From Flavobacterium sp. (GTDB taxonomy: Bacteria; Bacteroidota; Bacteroidia; Flavobacteriales; Flavobacteriaceae): a stretch of DNA of 10,000 nucleotides. Where the stretch lies: positions 1-10,000 of the forward strand of contig NZ_JAIWOF010000036.1 of NCBI RefSeq assembly GCF_020217025.1, written 5' to 3'. The notes beneath the pieces were generated by a model. The model did no database searches. It was not told the DNA's origin and worked only from the letters and a program-made list of their open reading frames with translations. The position numbers and the translations under genes are program-made. This document shows, one piece after another, positions 1 through 10,000 of the stretch (within the stretch, counting starts at the first letter, position 1; each line of letters begins with the position of its first letter).

Positions 1-48
1 CAAAAATCCGAACAATAAAGCAATATATAAGTAAAGTTTCTTTTTCAT
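1..48 (-). CDS. N-terminal fragment of a membrane or exported protein downstream of DUF58 (partial, off left edge)
   Basis: Only the first 16 codons are inside the window (MKKKLYLYIALLFGFL): a lysine-rich start followed by a hydrophobic stretch, as in a signal peptide or membrane anchor. The ATG lies 5 bases after the TAA of the DUF58 gene on the same strand, so the two are almost certainly co-transcribed. In Flavobacteriaceae, moxR-DUF58 pairs are usually followed by a small membrane or exported protein and then by BatA/BatB VWA membrane proteins, so this is probably the next member of that operon. The fragment is too short to name a family. Confidence 0.6.
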   Translation of the reverse strand, partial: MKKKLYLYIALLFGFL

Positions 49-53
49 TTTTC

Positions 54-920
54 TTAATTACGCGCTTTAAAATAACCTAATAATTTGGTTACATAGCTTT
101 CATCAACTCTCGAACTAATCGTACCCGCTCCACATTTTGAAAAAATATCCTTGAAATAATTTACGTTTTCACGATAGTATTTTTCATAATCCATTCGCAC
201 TTTATTGGATGTGGTATCAACCAAAAGTATTTCGCCTGTTTCGGCATCTAGCATATTTACTACTCCAATGTTTGGAATGCTTTCTTCTCTTTGGTCAAAC
301 ACTCGAATTCCAGTTACATCATGACGTTTTGAAGCGATTTTCAGCGTGTGTTCGTAGTCTTTCACCATGAAATCGGAAATTAAAAACACAATGGCTTTCT
401 TTTTCAAAACACTTGATAAATATTTCAAAGCTTGCGATAAATCGGTTTTTTTGCTTTTCGATTCGAATTCGATTAACTCGCGAATGATTCGTAAAACGTG
501 CGATTTTCCTTTTTTAGGCGGAATAAACAATTCGATTTGGTCCGAAAACAAAAGCAAACCTATTTTATCATTATTTTGAGTCGCCGAAAACGCTAATGTG
601 GCAGCGATTTCAGTAATCATATCGCGTTTTAACTGATTTTTTGTACCAAAACTTTCCGAACCTGAAATATCGACCATCAACATCATGGTTAATTCGCGTT
701 CTTCTTCAAATACTTTTACGAAAGGCTCGTTGTAGCGTGCCGTTACATTCCAATCGATAGCTCTTACGTCATCACCATATTGGTATTGGCGCACTTCAGA
801 AAACGTCATCCCGCGTCCTTTAAAAGACGTGTGATATTCTCCCGAAAAGATGTGATCACTCAATCTTCGGGTTTTGATTTCAATTTTTCGAACTTTCTTT
901 AGAATTTCTTTGGTATCCAT
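54..920 (-). CDS. DUF58 domain protein with VWA-like fold (Bat/MoxR operon)
   Basis: A 288-residue protein of the DUF58 family, the usual partner of MoxR AAA+ ATPases. The family signature is clear at about residues 44-62 (RQYQYGDDVRAIDWNVTAR). It is followed by a VWA-like domain with the metal-site motif DISGS at 84-88, a strand containing GLLLFSD near 121-127, and FLISDF at 179-184. No transmembrane segment is seen, so it is probably cytoplasmic or peripheral. The length is normal for the short bacteroidal form. It lies 78 bp downstream of moxR on the same strand, and the next gene begins 5 bp after its stop. MoxR/DUF58/Bat operons are thought to act in metal insertion, complex maturation or envelope stress; the exact function is not established. 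The ATG at 920 sits just after a 7-bp tandem repeat rather than a Shine-Dalgarno site. Confidence 0.93.
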   Translation of the reverse strand: MDTKEILKKVRKIEIKTRRLSDHIFSGEYHTSFKGRGMTFSEVRQYQYGDDVRAIDWNVTARYNEPFVKVFEEERELTMMLMVDISGSESFGTKNQLKRDMITEIAATLAFSATQNNDKIGLLLFSDQIELFIPPKKGKSHVLRIIRELIEFESKSKKTDLSQALKYLSSVLKKKAIVFLISDFMVKDYEHTLKIASKRHDVTGIRVFDQREESIPNIGVVNMLDAETGEILLVDTTSNKVRMDYEKYYRENVNYFKDIFSKCGAGTISSRVDESYVTKLLGYFKARN

Positions 921-925
921 TTTTA

Positions 926-960
926 AAAGGTAAAGGGTAAAAGGTAAAAGGTAAAAGACA
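926..960. repeat. Tandem 7-bp repeat (AAAGGTA) in the leader of the DUF58 gene
   Basis: Four consecutive 7-bp units are seen on the plus strand: AAAGGTA, AAGGGTA, AAAGGTA, AAAGGTA. A decayed fifth unit (AAAGACA) follows. On the coding strand these read as TACCTTT units ending 5 bases before the DUF58 ATG, so they occupy most of the translation-initiation region. A role is not evident. Confidence 0.75.
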
Positions 961-1000
961 CTTTACTAATGCCTAATCACTATTCCCTAATCACTTTTTT
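961..1000. repeat. Dispersed intergenic repeat with two CCTAATCACT units
   Basis: The moxR-DUF58 gap contains CCTAATCACT at 972-981 and again at 986-995, 14 bp apart; the second copy runs into a T-tract that overlaps the moxR stop codon. The same CTAATCACTTTTT sequence recurs at 3101-3113 in an unrelated gap, which marks it as a dispersed intergenic repeat rather than an operon-specific site. Confidence 0.6.
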
Positions 1001-2003
1001 AAGGTACTTCAACTTCGTTAACAATTCTGCTAATAATGTCTTCTGTGGTTACATTTTCGGCTTCAGCTTCGTAGGTGATTCCGATTCTGTGACGTAATAC
1101 ATCGTATACTACAGCACGAACGTCTTCTGGAATTACATAACCTCTACGTTTGATGAAAGCGTAACATTTAGCAGCGGTTGCTAAGTTGATACTTCCACGA
1201 GGCGAAGCTCCGAAACTGATTAATGGTTTTAGACTTTCTAATTTATATTTTTCTGGATAACGCGTTGCGAAAATTAAATCTAAGATGTATTTTTCGATTT
1301 TTTCGTCCATGTATACTTCACGAACGGCTTCTTGTGCTCTTAGAATTTGGTCTAACGAAACCACTTCATTTACTTTTTCGTAAGCACCTTTTAAGTTTTG
1401 ACGAATTACCAAGCGCTCGTCTTCCATTTTTGGATAATCGATAACCACTTTCAACATGAAACGGTCAACTTGTGCTTCTGGTAATGGATAAGTTCCTTCT
1501 TGGTCAACAGGATTTTGCGTTGCCATTACTAAGAACGGTTTGTCTAACTTAAACGTTTCATCACCAATGGTTACTTGCTTTTCTTGCATGGCTTCTAACA
1601 AAGCAGATTGCACTTTTGCTGGCGCACGGTTAATCTCATCAGCTAATACGAAGTTGGCGAAAATAGGTCCTTTACGAATGGTAAAGTCGTTTTGTTTGAT
1701 GTTATAAATCATTGTTCCAACTACATCGGCTGGCAATAAATCGGGTGTAAACTGAATACGGCTGAATGAACCGTGAACGGCTTGAGAAAGCGTATTAATG
1801 GCTAAGGTTTTTGCTAATCCAGGAACTCCTTCCAATAAAATATGTCCTTGACCCAACAAACCTATTAATAATCGCTCGACCATGTGTTTTTGACCTACGA
1901 TTACCTTATTCATTTCCATTGTAAGTAAGTCTATAAAAGCACTTTCTCTTTCAATCTTTTCATTAATTGCTCTAATGTCTAAGGTTGATGTATTTTCTTC
2001 CAT
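999..2003 (-). CDS. moxR: MoxR family AAA+ ATPase
   Basis: A 334-residue chaperone-type ATPase of the MoxR (AAA_3) family. The Walker A motif is GVPGLAKT at 59-66 (K65, T66). Walker B is FVLADE at 118-123. Sensor 1 is ATQNP at 161-165. The arginine finger is in EAQVDRF at 176-182 (R181). Sensor 2 is SFGASPRG at 263-270 (R269). The C-terminal AAA lid covers about 270-330. All catalytic residues are present and the length is normal. MoxR ATPases are thought to remodel or load cofactors into VWA-containing partners; the DUF58 gene downstream is the expected partner. The ATG at 2003 begins MEENTSTLDI, and the gene is divergent from the aldo/keto reductase across a 176-bp gap. No convincing -33/-7 promoter pair was found for it. 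Confidence 0.95.
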   Translation of the reverse strand: MEENTSTLDIRAINEKIERESAFIDLLTMEMNKVIVGQKHMVERLLIGLLGQGHILLEGVPGLAKTLAINTLSQAVHGSFSRIQFTPDLLPADVVGTMIYNIKQNDFTIRKGPIFANFVLADEINRAPAKVQSALLEAMQEKQVTIGDETFKLDKPFLVMATQNPVDQEGTYPLPEAQVDRFMLKVVIDYPKMEDERLVIRQNLKGAYEKVNEVVSLDQILRAQEAVREVYMDEKIEKYILDLIFATRYPEKYKLESLKPLISFGASPRGSINLATAAKCYAFIKRRGYVIPEDVRAVVYDVLRHRIGITYEAEAENVTTEDIISRIVNEVEVP

Positions 2004-2179
2004 TTTATGATTGTATTTGGCGGTGTGAAATTAACAACATTTTTTAACACTGCAAATTGAAATTTTTTTTAGTTTTAACTTGTTAACATTGCGTTAAAAA
2101 TGCATAAAAAAGGTTGATTTTATGAGTGTTTTATGATTCTATTTTATAATTTTAAGAAAAAATTAAAAACACAACAAAT

Positions 2180-3052
2180 ATGTCAGTACAATTATCCCCT
2201 ATTATTGCTGGAGTTATGAATTGGGGTGTTTGGGATAAAAACCTAAATACCAATGAGTTTACTCACTTAATTAATTTATTCATAGAAAACGGAATCACCA
2301 CTTTTGATCATGCCGATATTTATGGAGGTTATACAACAGAGGCTTCATTTGGAAAAGCGCTTTCTGAAAGTAAGATAGATCGCAAAAAAATTCAATTAAT
2401 TACCAAATGTGGCATTCAATATGTTTCAGAAAACAGACCTAATAATTCAATTAAACATTACGAATATTCGAAAGATTATATTATTTGGTCTGTCGAAAAT
2501 TCGTTGAAAAATTTACAAACCGATTATTTGGATGTTTTTTTACTTCACCGCCCAAGTCCGTTAATGCAAGCTGATGAAATTGCGGAAGCGGTTTCGAAAT
2601 TAAAAGCAGATGGAAAAATTCTATCTTTTGGAGTTTCTAATTTTACGTCATCTCAAACCGAATTATTGCGTCAGAAAACGGATGTTTCTTTTAATCAGGT
2701 ACAATTTTCCGCAACGCATCATGAAGCTATGTTAGATGGAAGTTTCGATTACATGCAAATCCACAATATCAAACCGATGGCATGGAATCCGTTAGGAACC
2801 GTTTTTAGGGAAAATACCGACCAAACTTTTAGATTACGTCAACTTTTGGCTAAGTTAGTTGAGAAATATCACATTGGTTCTGATATTATTTTATTGGCTT
2901 GGATTATGCAACATCCTGCTGGAATTTCTCCAGTGGCAGGAACGGTTAATTCAGGAAGAATTCAGCAATTGATGAAAGCAAAATCGTTAGTTTTAGACAA
3001 GCAAGATTGGTTTGCTATCTGGACAGAAAGTATGGGGCATAAAGTGCCTTAA
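2180..3052 (+). CDS. ydhF: YdhF-type aldo/keto reductase
   Basis: A 290-residue NAD(P)H-dependent oxidoreductase of the aldo/keto reductase superfamily (TIM barrel, cytoplasmic). The catalytic tetrad is in place: D43 and Y48 in TFDHADIYGGY, K76 in LITKCG, and H123 in LLHRP. GVSNFT at 151-156 and the substrate-loop segment PMAWNPLG at 199-206 are family hallmarks. DHADIYGGY, the KCGI stretch, HRPSPLM and a C-terminus ending in VP recall E. coli YdhF, so assignment to that subfamily is fairly secure; the physiological substrate is unknown. The ATG at 2180 is followed directly by the conserved N-terminal strand. The gene stands alone, with a long hairpin after its stop. Confidence 0.93.
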   Translation: MSVQLSPIIAGVMNWGVWDKNLNTNEFTHLINLFIENGITTFDHADIYGGYTTEASFGKALSESKIDRKKIQLITKCGIQYVSENRPNNSIKHYEYSKDYIIWSVENSLKNLQTDYLDVFLLHRPSPLMQADEIAEAVSKLKADGKILSFGVSNFTSSQTELLRQKTDVSFNQVQFSATHHEAMLDGSFDYMQIHNIKPMAWNPLGTVFRENTDQTFRLRQLLAKLVEKYHIGSDIILLAWIMQHPAGISPVAGTVNSGRIQQLMKAKSLVLDKQDWFAIWTESMGHKVP

Positions 3053-3063
3053 AAAGAGTAATT

Positions 3064-3116
3064 AGTGAAAAGTGATTAGTAAAAAGTCCATTTTTTTATG
3101 CTAATCACTTTTTACT
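3064..3116. repeat. Long intergenic hairpin built from AGTGATTAG-type repeat
   Basis: Bases 3064-3079 and 3101-3116 form a 16-bp inverted repeat with one G-U pair (core AAAAGTGATTAG / CTAATCACTTTT). Inside the loop, TAAAAA at 3080-3085 can pair with TTTTTA at 3093-3098, lengthening the stem. It lies just after the aldo/keto reductase stop and ends 20 bp before the next ATG. It could act as a weak bidirectional terminator, but its GC-poor stem and its match to the 961-1000 repeat suggest a dispersed element. Confidence 0.65.
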
Positions 3117-3136
3117 TGTAACCATTTACTAAAAAA

Positions 3137-4276
3137 ATGATCAACAAGCGCTTACTTATCAAAAATCTCTTAGCTCATCATGATGAGAACAGTTTTTATG
3201 ATAAGAAGCGCCAGTTGAATTTACACACTAAAGAAGGAAAAGCAAAATTCTTAAAACACATTTGTGCACTTTCCAATTCTAATCCAAGTAACAATTCTTA
3301 TATTGTGGTGGGTGTGGAAGATGAAACCAATGAAATCGTTGGGGATGATTTTTTTGATGATAGTAGGATTCAGAATTTAGTAAATGCCTTTTTAGAAAAT
3401 CCGCCAAAAATTCAGTACGAAAATGTGCCTTTTCCGAACCTTCCAAAAGATAAAGTGGTGGGATTAGTGACGATTAAACCGAAATCAAAAAATTCATATT
3501 TCAAAAAAGGTATTCACACCATTGAAGCAAACTCCTATTTCGTAAGAAAAGGGAGTAATACTTCGCCTACGACTGACAAAATTCCGTATTCGAAACAAAA
3601 TGTGGAAACGGTTATTAGTATTGAAAATAGCTCTCGTAATAGCATTGAACATACCTTAGAAAGCGTTTTAGATTTCATCAACAATCGCCATAAAGATTTG
3701 CCTTCAAAATACAAAGTTTTTAAAGAATTATTTGTGGTTTGTTGGGCTGGAAATAAGAAAAAAGTTCGGGATAAAGAGTATTATTCTAGAGTGGATATTG
3801 AGTTGGTCAACGAACAGGTAAAACTGTTTTATTCGGCTTTAGACGAGGTTAGTATTGACTATGATGAAAGTAGTTTTTCGATTACCGAATACATTTCACT
3901 TGGATTAAATGATAAAACGAGTTATTATCCGTTTGAAAAAGTAACCTTAACTTTTTTTGACAATGGTTATTACAAAATAAATTCAGAAATGTTATTTGAA
4001 CCACCGCAATACAACCGAAAAATGTTGTATCATATTTACAATTCCAATTTGGTACTATTAGGAAAACTTCAAAAAGGATTACTATTAAACGATTCTGAAA
4101 AGCGAGATTTGGAGAACTTACCTCACATTATGATGATTTGCTATTTGAATGGTTTTGATGAAGCAAAGCAAAAATTAATTGATTCAAAACCGTACTTAAA
4201 ATTACTTGAAAATCCTTTAATCTACGTGTCTTTTAAAGAAGTGATGCGGATTTTAAGAAAAATGAAATACGACTAA
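3137..4276 (+). CDS. AlbA_2 (Schlafen-type) domain protein, function unknown
   Basis: A 379-residue protein whose N-terminal part (about 17-147) resembles the AlbA_2 domain, known as the putative DNA-binding domain of divergent AAA_4 proteins and related to the Schlafen core. The features seen are the ENSFYDKKRQL block at 17-27, the SYIVVGVEDETNEIVGDD strand-turn at 54-71, a following helix with NPPKI at 88-92, and SYFVRKGSNTSPTT at 133-146. The C-terminal part (about 170-379) shows no motif I recognise and has no Walker motifs, helicase or winged-helix segment. AlbA_2 proteins bind nucleic acid and some Schlafen relatives are RNA nucleases; whether this one cleaves anything cannot be told. 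The gene converges on the small membrane-protein gene, and the two stop codons overlap by 4 bp. Confidence 0.8.
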   Translation: MINKRLLIKNLLAHHDENSFYDKKRQLNLHTKEGKAKFLKHICALSNSNPSNNSYIVVGVEDETNEIVGDDFFDDSRIQNLVNAFLENPPKIQYENVPFPNLPKDKVVGLVTIKPKSKNSYFKKGIHTIEANSYFVRKGSNTSPTTDKIPYSKQNVETVISIENSSRNSIEHTLESVLDFINNRHKDLPSKYKVFKELFVVCWAGNKKKVRDKEYYSRVDIELVNEQVKLFYSALDEVSIDYDESSFSITEYISLGLNDKTSYYPFEKVTLTFFDNGYYKINSEMLFEPPQYNRKMLYHIYNSNLVLLGKLQKGLLLNDSEKRDLENLPHIMMICYLNGFDEAKQKLIDSKPYLKLLENPLIYVSFKEVMRILRKMKYD

Positions 4277-4500
4277 TACAATTTTTTATTTTTTATAAAA
4301 AGTATCAATGCCAAATAGGAAACGAAAAGAAAAACACCTAAAATGTAAATCAGTTCAAATTGCGCATGATATCCAATACATTTAGATAAAAATGTACTAC
4401 TTTCAAAAAACAATGTGTTGTATGTTAAATCGGCTACAGTATATAGCCAAACCAAACTCAGAAACAACAAAAACAGCAAGATTTTAGTATATAGTTTCAT
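4273..4500 (-). CDS. Small two-helix membrane protein
   Basis: A 75-residue protein with two strongly hydrophobic stretches, about 5-22 and 48-70, joined by a polar loop (23-47) and ending in the basic tail KNKKLY. This suggests a hairpin inner-membrane protein. No family is recognised. The stop (TAG) overlaps the convergent AlbA_2 gene by 4 bp. The ATG at 4500 follows AAAAAGG. The 5' region carries a -7-like box and, 19 bp further upstream, a copy of the 35-bp element that also precedes the lipoprotein gene at 7735, so it is probably controlled together with the signalling cluster on its right. It could be an output or an accessory protein of that two-component system; this is inference. Confidence 0.7.
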   Translation of the reverse strand: MKLYTKILLFLLFLSLVWLYTVADLTYNTLFFESSTFLSKCIGYHAQFELIYILGVFLFVSYLALILFIKNKKLY

Positions 4501-4525
4501 CCTTTTTATTATTTAAATTACAATG

Positions 4526-4533
4526 TAAAGGTA
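4526..4533 (-). promoter_or_regulatory. Candidate -7 box ahead of the small membrane protein
   Basis: On the minus strand the sequence reads TACCTTTA, seven of eight matches to the Bacteroidota -7 consensus TAnnTTTG. It lies about 25 bp before the ATG at 4500 and exactly 19 bp downstream of the repeated 19-bp core. No TTG is present at the normal -33 spacing, as would be expected for an activator-dependent promoter. The same arrangement is seen at 7796-7841. Confidence 0.5.
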
Positions 4534-4552
4534 AGGACGCTTTTTGGTTGGG

Positions 4553-4587
4553 TTGCTGTAGTTTTTCTGCACATTTTGTTAAAATTT
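4553..4587 (-). promoter_or_regulatory. 35-bp repeated element, copy 1 (candidate operator)
   Basis: The core TTGCTGTAGTTTTTCTGCA (plus strand, 4553-4571) is identical to 7823-7841. Similarity continues over the next 16 bases, giving 31 of 35 identical positions, and then stops. The core holds a direct repeat, CTGTA at 4556 and CTGCA at 4567, with an 11-bp period of about one helical turn. It lies between the response-regulator stop codon and the small membrane-protein gene. The adjacent response regulator is the obvious candidate to bind it, but this is inferred from position only. Confidence 0.6.
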
Positions 4588-5246
4588 CATATTAAGCCTC
4601 TTTTTTTTGCTTCTTTAATAATGTCTTCGTCAGAACCTTTTTCAATATTAAAAAACTCTTTTATATGGGCTTTTCTTTTGTCGATGGCACTCAATGTAAT
4701 ATTAATATGCTCTGGCATGTTTTTGGTTTTTATGCCTTGCGCCAAAAGCGTTATAATTTGTTGGTAATACTCATCTAACAAAAACTCATTTGCCATTAAT
4801 TCATTAATGTTTTGTTGCACTGTGCGACTTTTATATTTATCACCATTCATAATTTGATTAAATGCAGTTAAAAGTTCTTGGGCAGAAAAATCACTTTTAA
4901 CTAAGAAGCCTTCGGGTTCAATTTCTCTATGAATTTTATACAATAAAAAGGCTTCAACATGTGATGTTAGAATTATAATTTTAGTTGTAGGCATGTAATT
5001 CCTAACTAATCTTGCTAAATCATGTCCGGAATAAATTTTTTGTTCTGGAAAGGCTGGCAAACTCAAATCGATAAAAACCACATCGTAAGCGGATAGGTTT
5101 TGATTATCAGCTATTAAATAATAAGCGCTTTCGCAATTATAAGCTGGTGTAACATTAATTTCACAATCCAAATCGTTAAAAGAAAGAATGCTTTTATATC
5201 CTTCTATCATGGAAGGATGGTCATCAATCATTAATACATTTAGCAT
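4587..5246 (-). CDS. Response regulator, NarL/LuxR type
   Basis: A 219-residue two-component response regulator, counted from the ATG at 5246. The N-terminal receiver domain (about 1-130) has the acidic pair D8-D9 (LMIDDHP), the phosphoacceptor D60 in VVFIDLSLP, the switch residues T94-S95 in IILTSH, and K117 in FLVKSD. The C-terminal part (about 158-219) is a divergent LuxR-type helix-turn-helix (ITLLAQGIKTKNMPEHINI, then a recognition helix near 185-200). It is encoded 24 bp downstream of the sensor kinase and is surely its partner. An in-frame TTG at 5258 would add four residues (METK); the ATG is preferred because MLNVLMIDDHP is the usual family start. It should be a cytoplasmic DNA-binding transcription factor; its likely targets are the two copies of the 35-bp element flanking this locus. 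Confidence 0.93.
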   Translation of the reverse strand: MLNVLMIDDHPSMIEGYKSILSFNDLDCEINVTPAYNCESAYYLIADNQNLSAYDVVFIDLSLPAFPEQKIYSGHDLARLVRNYMPTTKIIILTSHVEAFLLYKIHREIEPEGFLVKSDFSAQELLTAFNQIMNGDKYKSRTVQQNINELMANEFLLDEYYQQIITLLAQGIKTKNMPEHINITLSAIDKRKAHIKEFFNIEKGSDEDIIKEAKKRGLI

Positions 5247-5270
5247 TTTAGTTTCCAAAATTCTTATTTT

Positions 5271-7277
5271 TTATAATTTAACTTTTAAAGATACTTTAGT
5301 TCCTTTATTTATCTCAGATGAAATCTTTATTCGTCCGTTTATTGATTCTGCTCGACTTTCCATATTTTTTAGTCCAATTCCTGATTTTAATTTTGAAACC
5401 TTAAAACCAATACCATCATCCTTTATAGACAAATATAAAAAACCTTCATCAATGCTTAAACTCAACGAAATCATTGAAGCATTAGCGTGTTTGTTGATGT
5501 TATTTAACGATTCTTGAATAATTCTATAGACATTCATTTTTATTAAAGCAGAAATCATTTCAATCGTCTCGTCAGGAGTTATTACAAATTCGCATTGGGT
5601 TTGATAAGTTTCTTTTTGATTCTGAATCAATTGCTCTAAAATACTTCTGTAATTGCCCTTGTTGAGAAAGGATTCGAAATTTAATTCATGAGCAACCGTT
5701 CGTATTTCGCTTTCGACACTTTGAATTTTATCTATATATTCAATACTTCTTTTTATAACGGTTTCATCAGGTTTTTGAGTTAAAGCAAACAAATTGAATC
5801 GAATGCTAGCCAATTTGTTTAGAATGTTATCATGAAGATCTTGTGAAATTCGCAACTGTTCTTTCTTTTTAGCTTCTTCTAACTCTTCTTGTTTGTCAAG
5901 CATCAATTTATAAATCTCTTCATTTGTCTTCTGCTGTTCTTGACTAAATAATAATTCTCTATGCTTACTTCTTTGATAAAGGATAATATAAAACAATATC
6001 CCAAAAGAAATAACAAGCAAAGAAGAAATCAAAATAATTCGAAAACGATTTGAAATAGCTTCTTTCTCTACAATAATTTCATCTGTTTCAAATTCAATTC
6101 TTGCTAATTTATTTCGTGTTAAGCGCTCTTGTCGCTGTAAACTATCGCTAATTTTTATATATTCCTTAGCGTATTTTAAACCTTCTTTAGGTTTTAATTC
6201 AGTGTAGAAATCAAGTGTTTGTAAAAGTTCTTTATTGTACTTCGACTCTTTAGCTAAACGATTGGCTTCTTCGTTGTACTTAAGCGCAATTATAGTGTCA
6301 TTTTTAGATAAAAAATATTCAACAAGGTGAACTCTAATGTTTATTTTACTGTAAATATCATCGATTTCATCTCCAAGATCTAATGCTGTTTTAAATCCAC
6401 TCAATCCTTCGTTTTTATTAATTTTGAAACGAGAATACGCATAATTATCAACTAATGAAATGTATAATACCGGTTGCATTTCTTTGAGATTATTAATTTT
6501 TAATCCTTCTGCAAAAATTTCACCAGCTTCTTTAAACTTACCTAAATTTAAATATACAAAACCAATATTATTTATGGCTTGAGCTTGTAAAATAGGCTTG
6601 TAATTTTCATTCTTTATGTTCTTAATTTGTGATAAGGATTTTTGATGATATTCTAATGCTTTTTCATAATTTCCTAATCCAGATAATGAAATTCCTAAAT
6701 TTACAAAACACTCATAAATCAACTCTTGATCTTTAATCTCGGTGGCAACATTTAAAACTTTAACCGTCTCTATCTCACTACCTATAAAATCTTTTTCATA
6801 GGATAAAATATAGGCTTTATGTAATTTTGTACTTGCTAAATTAGGCTTGTCATTTAAATTTTCATATTTCTTTTCAGCCTCTAAATAATAATAGTAAGCA
6901 CTATCATTTTTTGAAGTAGAAAAATAATAATCTCCTAAATAATATTCTGCTCTTGCAATATTTAGTGAGTCCTTTTTAGATTTAGAAATTTCTAAAACTT
7001 TATTTGTTATTTCTTTATATTTCTCATATTCTAAAACTCCAAAATAGCGATTGGCTATTTTAAAATAGTTCTTTATTTTTAGTGAGTCGGAATAATTTGA
7101 ATTGTCAATTAGTTGCTCTATCGAATCGATAAATTTCAAACGAGTGACTTTATCCAAATTAACATTTGAACTATTTTCAAAATACGCATCTAATTTTTTT
7201 TGATCTATAGCCCTATCCTCATTTGAATTACATCCAATGAGAAAAAAGAGACCAAATAAAATTATAACCTGTTTCAA
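5271..7277 (-). CDS. TPR-containing sensor histidine kinase, NarL/DegS type (HisKA_3)
   Basis: A 668-residue sensor kinase. It begins with a lipoprotein-type signal ending in LIGC (C16), followed by a long helical region with tetratricopeptide-like repeats (about 60-380; clearest near 187-260, e.g. NLGISLSGLGNYEKALEYHQKSL), one transmembrane helix at about 413-434, and a coiled-coil linker (440-475). The HisKA_3 domain carries phospho-acceptor H482 in DLHDNILNKL. The HATPase_c domain has an N-box (IIQESLNNINKHA, 586-598), DDGIGF at 620-625 and GIGLKNM at 633-639. All catalytic motifs are intact. The TPR region should face the periplasm and act as the sensor, plausibly for a peptide or protein. 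The start is TTG at 7277, because TAA lies directly before it in frame and the signal peptide requires this start. The partner regulator gene follows after 24 bp; two small exported-protein genes precede it. Confidence 0.93.
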   Translation of the reverse strand: MKQVIILFGLFFLIGCNSNEDRAIDQKKLDAYFENSSNVNLDKVTRLKFIDSIEQLIDNSNYSDSLKIKNYFKIANRYFGVLEYEKYKEITNKVLEISKSKKDSLNIARAEYYLGDYYFSTSKNDSAYYYYLEAEKKYENLNDKPNLASTKLHKAYILSYEKDFIGSEIETVKVLNVATEIKDQELIYECFVNLGISLSGLGNYEKALEYHQKSLSQIKNIKNENYKPILQAQAINNIGFVYLNLGKFKEAGEIFAEGLKINNLKEMQPVLYISLVDNYAYSRFKINKNEGLSGFKTALDLGDEIDDIYSKINIRVHLVEYFLSKNDTIIALKYNEEANRLAKESKYNKELLQTLDFYTELKPKEGLKYAKEYIKISDSLQRQERLTRNKLARIEFETDEIIVEKEAISNRFRIILISSLLVISFGILFYIILYQRSKHRELLFSQEQQKTNEEIYKLMLDKQEELEEAKKKEQLRISQDLHDNILNKLASIRFNLFALTQKPDETVIKRSIEYIDKIQSVESEIRTVAHELNFESFLNKGNYRSILEQLIQNQKETYQTQCEFVITPDETIEMISALIKMNVYRIIQESLNNINKHANASMISLSLSIDEGFLYLSIKDDGIGFKVSKLKSGIGLKNMESRAESINGRIKISSEINKGTKVSLKVKL

Positions 7278-7295
7278 TTAAAATAATTTACTCAT
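7278..7295 (-). other. Five-codon upstream ORF (MSKLF-stop) abutting the kinase TTG start
   Basis: ATG at 7295 opens MSKLF and ends in TAA at 7280-7278. The kinase TTG follows as the very next codon in the same frame. Either this is a leader peptide with re-initiation at TTG, or the TAA is a nonsense change in a kinase that originally began at this ATG: reading through would give a normal 22-residue lipoprotein signal. Confidence 0.45.
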
Positions 7296-7298
7296 AAA

Positions 7299-7306
7299 CA
7301 AAAATA
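7299..7306 (-). promoter_or_regulatory. Possible internal -7 box ahead of the kinase gene
   Basis: The minus strand reads TATTTTTG, a full match to TAnnTTTG, in the 46-bp gap between the 58-residue protein and the kinase. Transcription would begin near 7292, removing the MSKLF start and leaving a short leader before TTG. No TTG lies at -33 spacing, and T-rich matches arise by chance, so this is tentative. Confidence 0.3.
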
Positions 7307-7323
7307 CTATTTAAAGATAATAA

Positions 7324-7500
7324 TTAATCCTTTTTTATAATAATAATAGGTGTTCGCGAATTAATTGCACTTTCAACTTTAATTTTTTCTGTTTTTTCAA
7401 TTTTATAAGTCATAACTTTTTCAATTGAATCTTTCTCTACATTATTTGACATCGTGGACAAAAAGATAGAGCTTACTATTAACACTACTATTGTTTTCAT
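7324..7500 (-). CDS. Small exported protein or peptide precursor, 58 residues
   Basis: ATG at 7500 to TAA at 7326-7324 encodes 58 residues: a short hydrophobic signal-type start (MKTIVVLIVSSIFLSTMS), then a lysine- and glutamate-rich charged middle, then the hydrophobic-basic tail TPIIIIKKD at 50-58. The tail closely matches that of the 71-residue lipoprotein encoded 19 bp upstream (TPLVIVIKKD), while the middles differ. DNA around the two stop codons is also alike, which supports an old tandem duplication. There is no lipobox cysteine. The gene lies between the lipoprotein and the TPR kinase on the same strand and is probably co-transcribed. No known family is recognised; a peptide signal or a ligand of the kinase is one possibility. 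Confidence 0.7.
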   Translation of the reverse strand: MKTIVVLIVSSIFLSTMSNNVEKDSIEKVMTYKIEKTEKIKVESAINSRTPIIIIKKD

Positions 7501-7519
7501 TTCTTTAATATTTTAAAAA

Positions 7520-7735
7520 TTAATCTTTTTTAATTACTATAACTAAAGGCGTTCCATCTTCCGTAGTTGTAGCATTCTGTGTTTCTGTTAAATCTCCTTC
7601 CTTGGATTGTTGATTTCGGATATTTTCTGTTACTTTTACACTTTCTTCAAGTGCAGCATCGTACTCGTCTGTTGTGCATGAAAAAAGAGTAATTCCTACT
7701 AATGCTAAAGCGAATAATTTAACTGAATTTTTCAT
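7520..7735 (-). CDS. Small lipoprotein, 71 residues, possible peptide precursor
   Basis: A 71-residue protein with a clear lipoprotein signal (MKNSVKLFALALVGITLFSC; lipobox LFSC, C20). The mature part begins TTDEYD, and the acidic residues soon after the cysteine resemble the lipoprotein export signal of Bacteroidota, so surface exposure is possible. A low-complexity, Thr/Glu/Gln-rich stretch (about 33-60) follows, then the tail DGTPLVIVIKKD at 60-71. The tail recurs in the next gene. This is the first gene of a minus-strand cluster with the second small protein, sensor kinase and response regulator. Its upstream region has a full-match -7 box and a copy of the 35-bp element. No known family is recognised. 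Confidence 0.8.
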   Translation of the reverse strand: MKNSVKLFALALVGITLFSCTTDEYDAALEESVKVTENIRNQQSKEGDLTETQNATTTEDGTPLVIVIKKD

Positions 7736-7795
7736 AAGATTTTGATTTTAAAGGTTTTGTTTATTTGTTTACAATGGGTTTATTAACTTGAAATA

Positions 7796-7803
7796 CAAAA
7801 TTA
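7796..7803 (-). promoter_or_regulatory. -7 box ahead of the small lipoprotein gene
   Basis: The minus strand reads TAATTTTG, a full match to the Bacteroidota -7 consensus TAnnTTTG, about 60 bp before the ATG at 7735. It lies exactly 19 bp downstream of the repeated 19-bp core at 7823-7841. No TTG occurs at normal -33 spacing. This is the likely promoter of the peptide-kinase-regulator cluster. Confidence 0.55.
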
Positions 7804-7822
7804 GATACACTGCAAAAATTAA

Positions 7823-7857
7823 TTGCTGTAGTTTTTCTGCATATTTTTCTAAAAATT
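7823..7857 (-). promoter_or_regulatory. 35-bp repeated element, copy 2 (candidate operator)
   Basis: This copy matches 4553-4587 at 31 of 35 bases, with a perfect 19-bp core. CTGTA at 7826 and CTGCA at 7837 repeat with an 11-bp period, and a further CTGCA lies at 7810. It sits in the divergent gap between the lipoprotein gene (minus) and the metallophosphatase (plus). The shared orientation and 19-bp distance to a -7 box point to control of the minus-strand lipoprotein gene, although an effect on the plus-strand gene, whose ATG is 20 bp away, cannot be excluded. Confidence 0.6.
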
Positions 7858-7877
7858 GAATCAAATTATATTTAATT

Positions 7878-8612
7878 ATGAGAAAATTCGTACTAGGAGA
7901 TATTCATGGTGGATTAAAAGCCATTCACCAAGTTTTAGAAAGAGCCGACGTTACTAATAATGACACTTTGATTTTTCTTGGTGACTTTGTAGATGGTTGG
8001 AGCGAATCGCCAGCAGTTTTGAATTTTTTGATTGCATTACAAAAAAAACAACCTTGTATTTTTATTCGTGGAAATCACGATGAACTTCTATTAGACTGGC
8101 TATTAGGTAATAACGAAAATATTGATAAAAAATTGTGGTTTCAACATGGTGGAGAAGCAACTGTAAAATCATATCAAAATATTGACTCGGAAACGAAAGA
8201 GAAACATATTCGTTTTTTACAATCGCTTCAAAATTACTATTTAGATGATGAAAACCGATTGTTTATTCATGCTGGTTTTACGAATATGAAAGGCGTAGAA
8301 TACGAATATTTCAAACCACTTTTTTACTGGGATAGAACCCTTTGGGAAACCGCCTTAGCTCTTGATCCGAATCTTTCTAAAGATGCTATCACTTATCCAA
8401 ATCGGCTAACAATTTACAAAGAAATTTACATCGGGCATACTCCTGTTACCAAAATAAATGAAAGTATTCCTGTGAATAAAGCTTGTGTGTGGAATGTAGA
8501 TACTGGTGCCGCATTCAAAGGAAAACTCACGATAATGGATATTGAAACCAAAGAATTCTGGCAAAGTGATGCTTTACCTGAGTTATATCCCAACGAAAAC
8601 GGAAGAAATTAA
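7878..8612 (+). CDS. Calcineurin-like metallophosphatase (PPP-type serine/threonine phosphatase)
   Basis: A 244-residue cytoplasmic metallophosphoesterase with every dimetal-site motif of the PPP/Ap4A-hydrolase group: GDIHG at 7-11 (D8, H10), GDFVDG at 35-40 (D36), GNHDE at 65-69 (N66, H67), HAG at 131-133 (H131) and GHTP at 186-189 (H187), followed by NVDTGAAF. The length is typical of bacterial PrpA/PrpB-like protein phosphatases and of symmetrical Ap4A hydrolases; the sequence alone does not decide between them. The ATG at 7878 puts the first metal motif at residue 7, as usual. Its neighbours give no clue to the substrate. The barrel-protein promoter begins 8 bp after its stop. Confidence 0.93.
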   Translation: MRKFVLGDIHGGLKAIHQVLERADVTNNDTLIFLGDFVDGWSESPAVLNFLIALQKKQPCIFIRGNHDELLLDWLLGNNENIDKKLWFQHGGEATVKSYQNIDSETKEKHIRFLQSLQNYYLDDENRLFIHAGFTNMKGVEYEYFKPLFYWDRTLWETALALDPNLSKDAITYPNRLTIYKEIYIGHTPVTKINESIPVNKACVWNVDTGAAFKGKLTIMDIETKEFWQSDALPELYPNENGRN

Positions 8613-8619
8613 AAAATTG

Positions 8620-8627
8620 TATCTTTG
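8620..8627 (+). promoter_or_regulatory. -7 box of the outer-membrane barrel gene
   Basis: TATCTTTG fully matches the Bacteroidota -7 consensus TAnnTTTG and lies 24 bp before the ATG at 8652. It also settles the start: an in-frame TTG at 8625 falls inside this box and would lie upstream of the transcript. No clear -33 TTG is present. Confidence 0.6.
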
Positions 8628-8651
8628 TATGATAATAAAAAATCGAAATCT

Positions 8652-9149
8652 ATGAAAAATATTCTGACGGTAATATGTTTGTTTGTTACAATTCAAATGG
8701 CAAATGCGCAAGTTTTTAAAGGAAAAGGAGATACAAAATTTCAAGTAGGAGCCAACATTCAGGAAAAAGGAACAGGAATAATTGCTACTTATGATAGAGG
8801 AATCGGCACAAATATGTCGTTTGGTTTTACTTCTTTATACTTATTAGGAATTGAAGAAGTAGCAGGCGAAAAACCAAATTTTGATGACCGTTTTGATTTA
8901 AGAGCTCGTTTTAGTGCCAATATTGCAGATGTTTTTGGTATCGAAGAAAAAGTAGATATTTATCCTGGATTAAACATTGGAATTAAAAATTTTGGATCAC
9001 ATTTAGGGGCTCGTTATTTTATTACAGATGGTTTTGGACTTTACTCTGAAATTCAATTTCCAATAGCTCATTACGATAATAATCCAGAAGGATTTGAAAA
9101 ATACAACAATCAGTTTAACTTCTCTATTGGTGCAAGTTTTAATCTGTAA
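8652..9149 (+). CDS. Small outer-membrane beta-barrel protein (DUF6646-like)
   Basis: A 165-residue exported protein. The N-terminus is a standard signal peptide (MKNILTVICLFVTIQMANAQ) with cleavage after Q20. The mature part alternates polar and hydrophobic residues in short strands with glycine- and aromatic-rich turns (KFQVGANIQ, MSFGFTSLYLLG, DLRARFSAN, LGARYFIT, FGLYSEIQFPIAH) and ends with the strand FNFSIGASFNL, as expected for an eight-strand-type outer-membrane barrel. The GKGDTKFQVGANIQ start resembles a flavobacterial family I recall as DUF6646; that name should be treated as tentative. Function is unknown. It has its own -7 box upstream and an intrinsic terminator downstream, so it is probably a single-gene transcript. 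Confidence 0.88.
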   Translation: MKNILTVICLFVTIQMANAQVFKGKGDTKFQVGANIQEKGTGIIATYDRGIGTNMSFGFTSLYLLGIEEVAGEKPNFDDRFDLRARFSANIADVFGIEEKVDIYPGLNIGIKNFGSHLGARYFITDGFGLYSEIQFPIAHYDNNPEGFEKYNNQFNFSIGASFNL

Positions 9150-9171
9150 ACCATTATTTGAATTTATTTTT

Positions 9172-9203
9172 AAAGCAACTTCATAAAAAAGTTGCTTTTT
9201 TTT
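9172..9203 (+). terminator. Intrinsic terminator after the barrel gene
   Basis: A 10-bp perfect stem, AAAGCAACTT (9172-9181) with AAGTTGCTTT (9189-9198), encloses a 7-base loop and is followed by a T-run through 9203. It lies 22 bp after the stop codon at 9149. Confidence 0.85.
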
Positions 9204-9224
9204 ATGCTGTTTTGTTACAATTTA

Positions 9225-9232
9225 TACCTTTG
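9225..9232 (+). promoter_or_regulatory. -7 box of the PhnA-domain gene
   Basis: TACCTTTG fully matches TAnnTTTG and lies 35 bp before the ATG at 9268, just downstream of the terminator. A -33 TTG at the usual distance is not evident. Confidence 0.55.
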
Positions 9233-9267
9233 CTTCAAATTATTTATTTACGTAAAATCCATTCAAA

Positions 9268-9843
9268 ATGAGTGTAATAGAAAAAAAACTGAAAGACCGC
9301 AGTGGTTCAGTTTGCGAAATTAGTGGTGCCGAACATGATTTAGTTGTGTACACGTTACCACCTCACACTGCAGAAAGCTTAGAACATTCGGTTTTAGTTG
9401 CAAAACATTTAAGAGACCAAATTGAAAATCCAGAAACCATGAATGAAAACGATTGGAGAGGATTATCAGAAAGTATGTGGAACGAACATTTGCCAGTTCA
9501 AATTTTATCTTGGAGAATGTTAGCCCGTTTGAAAAACAACGACTTGCTTGACATGATGTACTTAGATGAAGAAGCCTTAGAATGGGCAAAAGCAACAGGC
9601 GAAGGCGCAGAAGAAGACGAAAATAAAATTGTACATAAAGACAGTAACGGCGTTATTTTACAAGATGGCGATTCGGTAGTGTTGGTTAAAGATTTAGATG
9701 TTAAAGGTGCTACTTTTACTGCAAAACGTGGAGCTGCAGTACACAACATTAAATTAGCTTGGGACGACGCTAACCTTATTGAAGGTAGAGTGGAAAACCA
9801 AAGTATTTATATTTTGACGCAATACGTGAAGAAAACGAAGTAA
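9268..9843 (+). CDS. PhnA-domain protein (YjdM-related)
   Basis: A 191-residue protein with the PhnA domain at the C-terminus (about 124-190): DSNGVILQDGDSVVLVKDL, VKGATFTAKRG, the IKLAWDD strand and IEGRV ending in TQYVKK, an SH3-like barrel as in E. coli YjdM. Residues 1-115 are the extension found in the longer form, with ESMWNEHLPVQILSWRML (68-85) and DLLDMMYLDEEALEWAKATGEG (92-113). The short proteobacterial form starts with a four-cysteine zinc ribbon; here only C16 (SVCEISGAE) remains, so no zinc ribbon is expected. The PhnA name is historical and does not mean phosphonoacetate hydrolase; the function is unknown. It has its own -7 box. Confidence 0.9.
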   Translation: MSVIEKKLKDRSGSVCEISGAEHDLVVYTLPPHTAESLEHSVLVAKHLRDQIENPETMNENDWRGLSESMWNEHLPVQILSWRMLARLKNNDLLDMMYLDEEALEWAKATGEGAEEDENKIVHKDSNGVILQDGDSVVLVKDLDVKGATFTAKRGAAVHNIKLAWDDANLIEGRVENQSIYILTQYVKKTK

Positions 9844-9848
9844 TTTTT

Positions 9849-9868
9849 AATGTGCCAATGTGGTAATT
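9849..9868. repeat. Short AATGTG intergenic repeat
   Basis: AATGTG at 9849-9854 and 9857-9862 are separated by CC and followed by GTAATTA. This short repeat immediately after the PhnA-domain stop resembles the simple intergenic repeats elsewhere in the window. Two copies only, so chance is not excluded. Confidence 0.35.
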
Positions 9869-9913
9869 AAAAAAAGCCAAACGTTTTAAATGAATTAAAT
9901 TACTAATAATATC

Positions 9914-10000
9914 ATGAAAAAGATAATTTTAGGTTTGGCTACCATATTATTTATTTTATTCTTTTTAAGAAATTACACAAAGACAAGAGAAGATAATATT
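9914..10000 (+). CDS. N-terminus of a membrane-anchored or exported protein (partial, off right edge)
   Basis: Twenty-nine codons from the ATG at 9914 are visible and open to the window edge: MKKIILGLATILFILFF followed by LRNYTKTREDNI. A lysine start, a hydrophobic helix of about 15 residues and a basic flank suggest an N-terminal membrane anchor. No family can be named. It lies 70 bp after the PhnA-domain gene on the same strand, with no terminator between them. Confidence 0.55.
   Translation, partial: MKKIILGLATILFILFFLRNYTKTREDNI

Follow-up and report, generated by a model that had tools for sequence, protein, structure and literature searches.

The 10,000-nucleotide stretch of Flavobacterium sp. 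DNA analysed here (GCF_020217025.1, NZ_JAIWOF010000036.1, positions 1-10,000; hereafter the window) carries a conserved module of five genes, encoding two small exported proteins, a histidine kinase in which a tetratricopeptide repeat (TPR) sensor precedes a HisKA_3 domain, a NarL-type response regulator and a two-helix membrane protein (Table 1; L and G numbers denote the loci and genomes compared). We consider it likely that this locus belongs to a family of peptide-signalling two-component systems found in Flavobacteriaceae. A preliminary description had proposed five same-strand genes here, and all five minus-strand open reading frames (ORFs) are confirmed; that description understated the content of the locus, leaving unmentioned a 19-bp box that recurs within it. 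The intergenic gaps that it gave, in gene order 19, 46, 24 and 86 bp, are right for the first, second and fourth, while the third is 24 bp from an internal ATG of the regulator (5246) and 12 bp from its TTG.

Kinase and small gene occur together across the family. Kinase homologues were found in 170 of 199 sampled Flavobacterium genomes (E up to 1e-60) and in 151 of 249 sampled Flavobacteriaceae genomes, representing 142 of 235 genera (1e-50); a Bacteroidota-wide sample yielded them in 29 of 296 genomes, all 29 belonging to Flavobacteriaceae. We took 160 kinase neighbourhoods from the top of the match lists, hence not a random sample, of which 130 were below 90% identity and 125 had at least 330 bp of upstream sequence. 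A small signal-peptide ORF ended no more than 300 bp upstream of 119 of these 125 kinases (median 89 bp), among them 37/37 kinases of other genera; under the same filter, only 21 of 292 other genes of those loci had such an ORF, several of these being kinase fragments. The absence of small ORFs beside orthologous kinases, which the preliminary description had named as one outcome that would refute it, did not occur. A subset that overlaps the 125 kinases (L157-L209) had a small exported-protein gene at 53/53, and a control with other HisKA_3 kinases had one at 0/2, with only two usable loci. A further kinase of the window's genome (G000:C238, L210) likewise has its own small protein, ending GDPFPPKPKG. 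At L135 (G078:C1:709000-720300), three TPR kinases lie in tandem and each is paired with a different small exported protein, which makes the locus a natural test of one-to-one specificity.

The upstream proteins, 119 in all, range from 46 to 154 residues and come in several designs: single-tail lipoproteins, several same-tail genes at one locus (L140 has six genes ending TDPIIIPKKD and one ending NPILIIKND), and proteins with a signal peptide and little beyond tandem units, such as IIGGNATGGNMKLD six times (L131), AAGSGSTGGNVRLD five times (L097) and SSTDGDDVPTDTRD six times (L169). Many carry a lipobox. An exact 8-mer is repeated in 37 of the 119 and in none of 200 shuffles; by a strict rule 27 precursors are tandem, 3 of them in other genera, and L126 is one more case outside those counted. 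Copies within the 27 tandem sets differ at synonymous sites (pS 0.366) far more than at nonsynonymous ones (pN 0.031; pN/pS 0.084), with no nonsynonymous difference in 13 sets, so that what selection preserves is the peptide unit rather than the DNA. Of the 37 repeat precursors, 27 have a last repeated 7-mer that reaches the final residue, and in 30 it stops within one residue of that point. The C-terminal unit, about 10 residues in the window, spans 13-18 residues in 26 of the 27 tandem precursors, and often terminates in D after basic residues. Judged from sequence, this repeat anatomy is that expected of a precursor that would yield several copies of one peptide.

The two window proteins share a C-terminal tail, as the preliminary description had noticed. 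Both tails are kept in all six loci of the first relative search in which both small genes are readable (the window, L015-L018 and L022), so that they are not chance matches, and the codons are constrained: across nine sequences pN/pS is 0.36 and 0.32 in the two tails versus 0.77 in the lipoprotein linker. The 71-residue lipoprotein has 62 database homologues, and in the 60 that were aligned the tail is kept as the pattern P-(hydrophobic)4-K-[KR]-D, its final D invariant in register. The small proteins match no Pfam or NCBIfam family: for the window pair in both searches, and for five relatives' precursors in one, all matches lay far below the cutoffs. We dropped the ideas that the tail is a PDZ ligand or a type IX sorting signal, as it is too short and unlike the known motifs.

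The architecture proposed for the signalling pair, a HisKA_3 kinase with a TPR sensor and a single internal transmembrane helix followed by its regulator, is borne out: Pfam recognised TPRs, HATPase_c and Response_reg in the window proteins, with HisKA_3 at 22.9 bits, just under its cutoff of 24. H482, N593, D620, G622 and G624 are invariant in 36 kinase sequences, the kinase part matches VraS and DesK, and the regulator aligns with RcsB, VraR and NarL over both the receiver and the helix-turn-helix (HTH) domain; the pair therefore has the parts of a HisKA_3/NarL-type two-component system, namely HisKA_3 with its His, HATPase_c and a linked receiver-LuxR HTH regulator. The predicted TPR sensor (the part of the kinase that the VIA comparison covered) matches peptide-bound LGN and Rap/NprR. 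Across kinase-precursor pairs, sensor divergence and tail divergence correlate.

The 19-bp box, TGCAGAAAAACTACAGCAA, is an imperfect palindrome (TGCAG-A5-CTACA) that stands before the operon and again, as an exact copy, before the last gene. The 35-nt repeats that enclose the two copies are 89% identical, and shuffles predict 0.01 box matches at up to 3 mismatches. The copy in the 86-bp gap suggests that the last gene has its own promoter, and with boxes before the first small gene and the last gene the locus looks like a four-gene operon and a separately promoted fifth gene. Downstream of the first box lies TAATTTTG, which, from the consensus, we take to be a Bacteroidota -7-type promoter element; TACCTTTA takes its place at the second. 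In the window's genome there are five exact box sites and three with one or two mismatches, and at up to 3 mismatches 13 sites versus 4 for the reversed pattern; five relatives have 40 versus 3 at up to 2 mismatches. The exact box occurs in only 4 of 199 Flavobacterium genomes, with kinase identities to the query of 100, 89, 87 and 64%; another five genomes each have one or two sites with a single mismatch. We compared 44 sites, all distinct though some of them orthologous; in 29 the box is followed at exactly 19 nt by a TAnnTTTG-like element (matching 5 or 6 of 6 positions), and the next best offset accounts for 9. For the 31 sites with an exact box the corresponding numbers are 22 and 4.

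Other species carry other operators. In F. cucumis both promoters have TACAC-A5-GTGTA, and a search with its 31-bp operator at up to 3 mismatches found only these two promoters and no wider regulon. G169 and G018, with kinases 68 and 65% identical, have TACAGAAAATCTGTA at 8 and 6 sites, with zero reversed-pattern matches, and in both genomes the genes behind these sites are those of the peptide operon, the two-helix protein, the M43 protease and exported lipoproteins. A target set that switches its operator together is strong evidence for one binding regulator, most simply the linked one; the swap amounts to a natural experiment in regulator-operator co-evolution. The operator repeat is plain by eye in L022; the shared-operator search was unsuccessful in L140 and did no better than shuffles in L138 and L139.

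Whether it is the box or the operator that replaces it coordinately in sister species, the element thus stands before the peptide operon, the M43 protease gene and genes for exported lipoproteins. In the window's genome the boxes stand upstream of the operon, the two-helix gene and a secreted M43 metalloprotease (PF05572, 1.5e-12); two of its sites (C72 and C199) lie at contig ends and are unreadable. Several of the exported lipoproteins are followed by small secreted paralogues (DUF6705), and at L282 the box precedes a PKD protein with a type IX sorting tail. At L283, L284, L285, L286 and L211, box-driven exported proteins (409-612 residues) differ in their C-terminal parts, and downstream of each lie genes for one to three small secreted proteins, of DUF6705 in L211, L283 and L285; L284 has a Tox-MPTase3 domain (6.8e-8); together these look like a polymorphic toxin and immunity family.

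In the window's clade the box set also includes a candidate small RNA (sRNA) and, less surely, abortive-infection candidates. The latter are an AIPR/AbiU gene downstream of a box in the window's genome (PF10592, 2.8e-30; AbiU, 8.7e-24; L278), an AbiP2 reverse transcriptase (3.4e-194; L215) and a PDC-M49A gene (2.9e-295; L218). The AIPR and PDC-M49A genes share the box variant TACAGAAAATCTACAGCAA and a core promoter with an LRR-Roc-COR GTPase of eukaryote-like architecture at a two-mismatch box (L217:1078-3174; COR-A 1.1e-39, Roc 4.5e-30). The same core promoter follows four exact boxes and one one-mismatch box, which speaks for these three sites; AbiP2 lacks it and is the weakest defence candidate. 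The core promoter was found in 3 of 199 Flavobacterium genomes, all three with the box, which rules out a general Flavobacterium element. PADLOC gave no match for the exact-box genes that have this core (the NA37 protein of L213 and the genes of L056/L280 and L060/L212) and none at 1e-3 for the whole proteins of L280, L281 and L276 or for both L277 genes; weak matches in parts of the L281 and L276 genes and in the L275 gene (mads_8, 0.0049; TmtA, 2.8e-5; GajB, 0.0017) were not counted. The genes behind operator sites in L280, L281, L276 and L277 (662, 703, 526 and 372 residues) are candidate new defence genes, by company alone. The circuit in the window's bacterium thus appears to govern protease and bacterial-weapon genes as well as candidate genes against phage.

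The candidate sRNA is a conserved stretch of about 210-226 nt under a box promoter, found in six loci of six genomes, including the window's. It ends in a strong terminator, holds no ATG-initiated ORF of at least 35 residues and has two GGGG-containing segments, TTTAAGGGGTTAAA and TTTAGGGGTAAAT in most loci; it may be a regulatory RNA. Rfam gave nothing at gathering score in the window, and by E-value five matches in three of the sRNA loci, all below gathering scores and taken as chance. Consensus folding of five sequences gave a structure, but with two-sided change in only 1 of 57 pairs and an unfavourable covariation term it does not demonstrate a conserved fold. The operator sites of G169 and G018 showed no such stretch.

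Table 1 Features of the window module and of the associated sRNA loci.
Feature	Position	Strand	Details
Lipoprotein, candidate peptide-signal precursor 1	7520..7735	-	71 residues; lipobox FSC, conserved post-Cys segment, variable linker, tail GTPLVIVIKKD
Signal-peptide protein, candidate precursor 2	7324..7500	-	58 residues; tail RTPIIIIKKD
Sensor histidine kinase	5271..7277	-	668 residues; TTG start; N-terminal lipobox LIGC (C16)
Kinase domains			TPR sensor ~20-405; one internal transmembrane helix ~412-434; HisKA_3 (H482); HATPase_c
NarL/RcsB-type response regulator	4587..5258	-	223 residues; receiver and divergent LuxR-type HTH
Two-helix membrane protein	4273..4500	-	75 residues; own box promoter; like gene at equivalent place in relatives
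Operator box TGCAGAAAAACTACAGCAA, before operon	7823..7841	-	19 bp; inside 35-nt repeat 7823-7857
-7-type element TAATTTTG	7796..7803	-	exactly 19 nt downstream of first box
Second exact box copy, before last gene	4553..4571	-	inside 35-nt repeat 4553-4587
-7-type element TACCTTTA	4526..4533	-	19 nt downstream of second box
Candidate sRNA	L003:1243-1468, L042:1552-1763, L049, L055, L058, L061

Convergent to the module, at 3137-4276 of the window, lies a gene for an SLFN/AlbA_2 and DUF5929 protein, whose place is kept in several relatives (L038, L045, L047, L059, L264 and L269). In a metagenome-assembled genome (L018:1969-3976) the kinase is split into two ORFs of 204 and 453 residues, a frameshift or an assembly error. 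In F. sasangense (L014:1-340 and L057) the kinase and the peptide genes are found at the ends of two different contigs, next to sequence that by eye is transposase-like, as if in that strain an insertion element separated the second small gene from the start of the kinase.

These observations suggest the following circuit. The small genes would encode precursors presumably exported by Sec, a lipoprotein and a signal-peptide protein here and tandem-repeat precursors in many relatives, whose C-terminal units would be the ligands. The periplasmic TPR superhelix of the kinase would bind such a unit, released or still attached, in an Asn-lined groove, and the kinase would then alter phosphorylation of its NarL-type regulator. 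The regulator would bind the palindromic operator adjoining the -33 position and activate transcription from the -7 element 19 nt downstream. Its regulon would comprise the peptide operon itself, giving positive feedback, the two-helix protein, the secreted M43 protease, the sRNA and the exported toxin- or immunity-like lipoproteins; abortive-infection genes would belong to it less surely. That the small proteins or their tails are kinase ligands had been proposed in the preliminary description; the proposal has survived the gene pairing, the selection on tandem repeats, the C-terminal position of those repeats, the predicted sensor fold and the sensor-tail correlation (which linkage may partly explain), and the ligand role itself we infer.

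The main rival is a purely cell-internal envelope sensor, which we think unlikely yet take seriously. Here the small exported protein would be a periplasmic partner of the kind known from the CpxP- and RseB-type modulators, its tail resting in the TPR groove and fixing the state of the kinase. The kinase would switch once envelope proteases removed this partner or once it was titrated during phage or toxin attack, with no free pheromone and no passage between cells. The precursors are predicted to go to the envelope, many with a lipobox, the conserved post-Cys segment suggests that the window lipoprotein is more than a tail carrier, and the toxin-like and abortive-infection-like targets suit a response to attack. 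In many relatives, however, the mature protein is little beyond three to six near-identical units under protein-level selection, and tandem gene copies have one common tail, a multi-copy precursor design rather than that of a folded modulator. Considerably less probable is that the small proteins are co-regulated cargo lipoproteins and that the kinase TPRs, a repeat that binds many partners, sense something else; placement directly upstream in 119 of 125 cases, the sensor-tail covariation and the strong constraint on the units argue against it. An ordinary two-component system beside spurious small ORFs is scarcely credible: such ORFs are easily called by chance, as the 21 control genes illustrate, but 119/125 versus 21/292, purifying selection in both small genes and 62 homologues of the 71-residue protein all stand against it.

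Several observations weigh against the peptide-signalling reading itself. Over the 60 aligned lipoproteins conservation is highest in the post-Cys segment (residues 21-34) and lowest in the linker, and identity in the tail is close to that in the linker (0.71 vs 0.66). Precursors without an exact repeat number 82 of 119, signal peptides were called by an ad hoc hydropathy rule rather than a dedicated predictor, and six of the 125 kinases have no upstream small gene by our filter (among them, L079 has two small genes farther off, at 325 and 555 bp, and at one L135 kinase the filter rejected the small gene). The sensor-tail correlation may be explained in part by linked inheritance, which would also produce one: the catalytic domain by itself gives r 0.66 with tail divergence and retains a partial correlation of 0.20, and a sliding-window correlation with the tail singled out no sensor segment. 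The AIPR/AbiU, AbiP2 and PDC-M49A genes all lie at two-mismatch boxes, where chance sites occur (3 reversed matches in five genomes); several regulon genes have no defence or toxin match at all, and many targets are not defence or weapon genes. Finally, the peptides would have an outer membrane to cross, and the loop may be purely cell-internal.

With these points in the balance, we hold peptide signalling as the better account, and the circuit is probably an undescribed chemical language. The broader proposition is evenly poised: a Flavobacteriaceae-wide language of quorum sensing or kin recognition, with Sec-exported, often multi-copy precursors, periplasmic TPR kinases and diverging pherotypes, which in the window's clade would time abortive infection against phage, weapons resembling polymorphic toxins, a secreted protease and an sRNA. 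The literature searched (open-licence papers, no preprints) yielded no description of the kinase-precursor family and no described peptide system for Bacteroidota. If the proposition is true, Bacteroidota gain a peptide signalling system, many receptor-ligand pairs become readable from genomes, with ligand sequences predicted closely enough for synthesis and testing, and peptide signalling is linked to interbacterial weapons and perhaps to phage defence.

The nearest known design is that of the RRNPP receptors (Rap, NprR, PlcR), whose TPR superhelix binds a short, re-imported peptide that is cleaved from a small exported protein, the gene of which lies beside the receptor gene. The preliminary description had drawn this analogy, and it stands for the Rap/NprR-like TPR superhelix and for the small precursor gene adjoining the receptor gene, here upstream of it; it fails for the site of sensing and for the output. 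The TPR sensor here lies between a lipobox and the membrane helix; by this predicted topology it is periplasmic rather than cytoplasmic, in a Gram-negative host where re-import would be unneeded, and its output is a histidine kinase instead of an HTH or Rap-type one. Three-component peptide quorum sensing in Gram-positive bacteria (AgrBDCA, ComCDE) likewise combines a precursor with a sensor kinase and a regulator at a single locus, and there too several promoters carry regulator boxes; its receptor kinase is polytopic, whereas the present one has TPRs and one internal transmembrane helix, and the present precursors are presumably Sec proteins, some with tandem units. A counterpart to the autoinduction of Agr and Com would be the operon-promoter box with its -7 element 19 nt away, if the regulator activates there. 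The yeast alpha-factor precursor, which is secreted and holds several near-identical copies of one short peptide, shares the multi-copy plan, and differs in being eukaryotic, in its Kex2-type processing and in its G-protein-coupled receptor.

Within Bacteroidota, PorA-PorXY-SigP offers a case in which an exported protein is proposed to relay a surface signal to a two-component system; PorA as described there has a type IX C-terminal domain and a FimH-like domain, which sets it apart from short precursors of repeated peptides (PMC7712824). Closer to the window kinase is FimS of the FimS/FimR pair of Porphyromonas gingivalis, also a Bacteroidota histidine kinase with a periplasmic TPR sensor, of eight predicted repeats; the available part of that paper has the authors suggesting a polypeptide signal, counts Asn as two of six critical residues and mentions no small peptide gene for FimS (PMC11053733). 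The NCBIfam FimS model matches the window kinase weakly (E 0.014, 13.6 bits, cutoff 600). Should the peptide-signalling reading hold, it would explain a common, uncharacterised class of TPR sensor kinases and give a pointer to the signal of sensors such as FimS.

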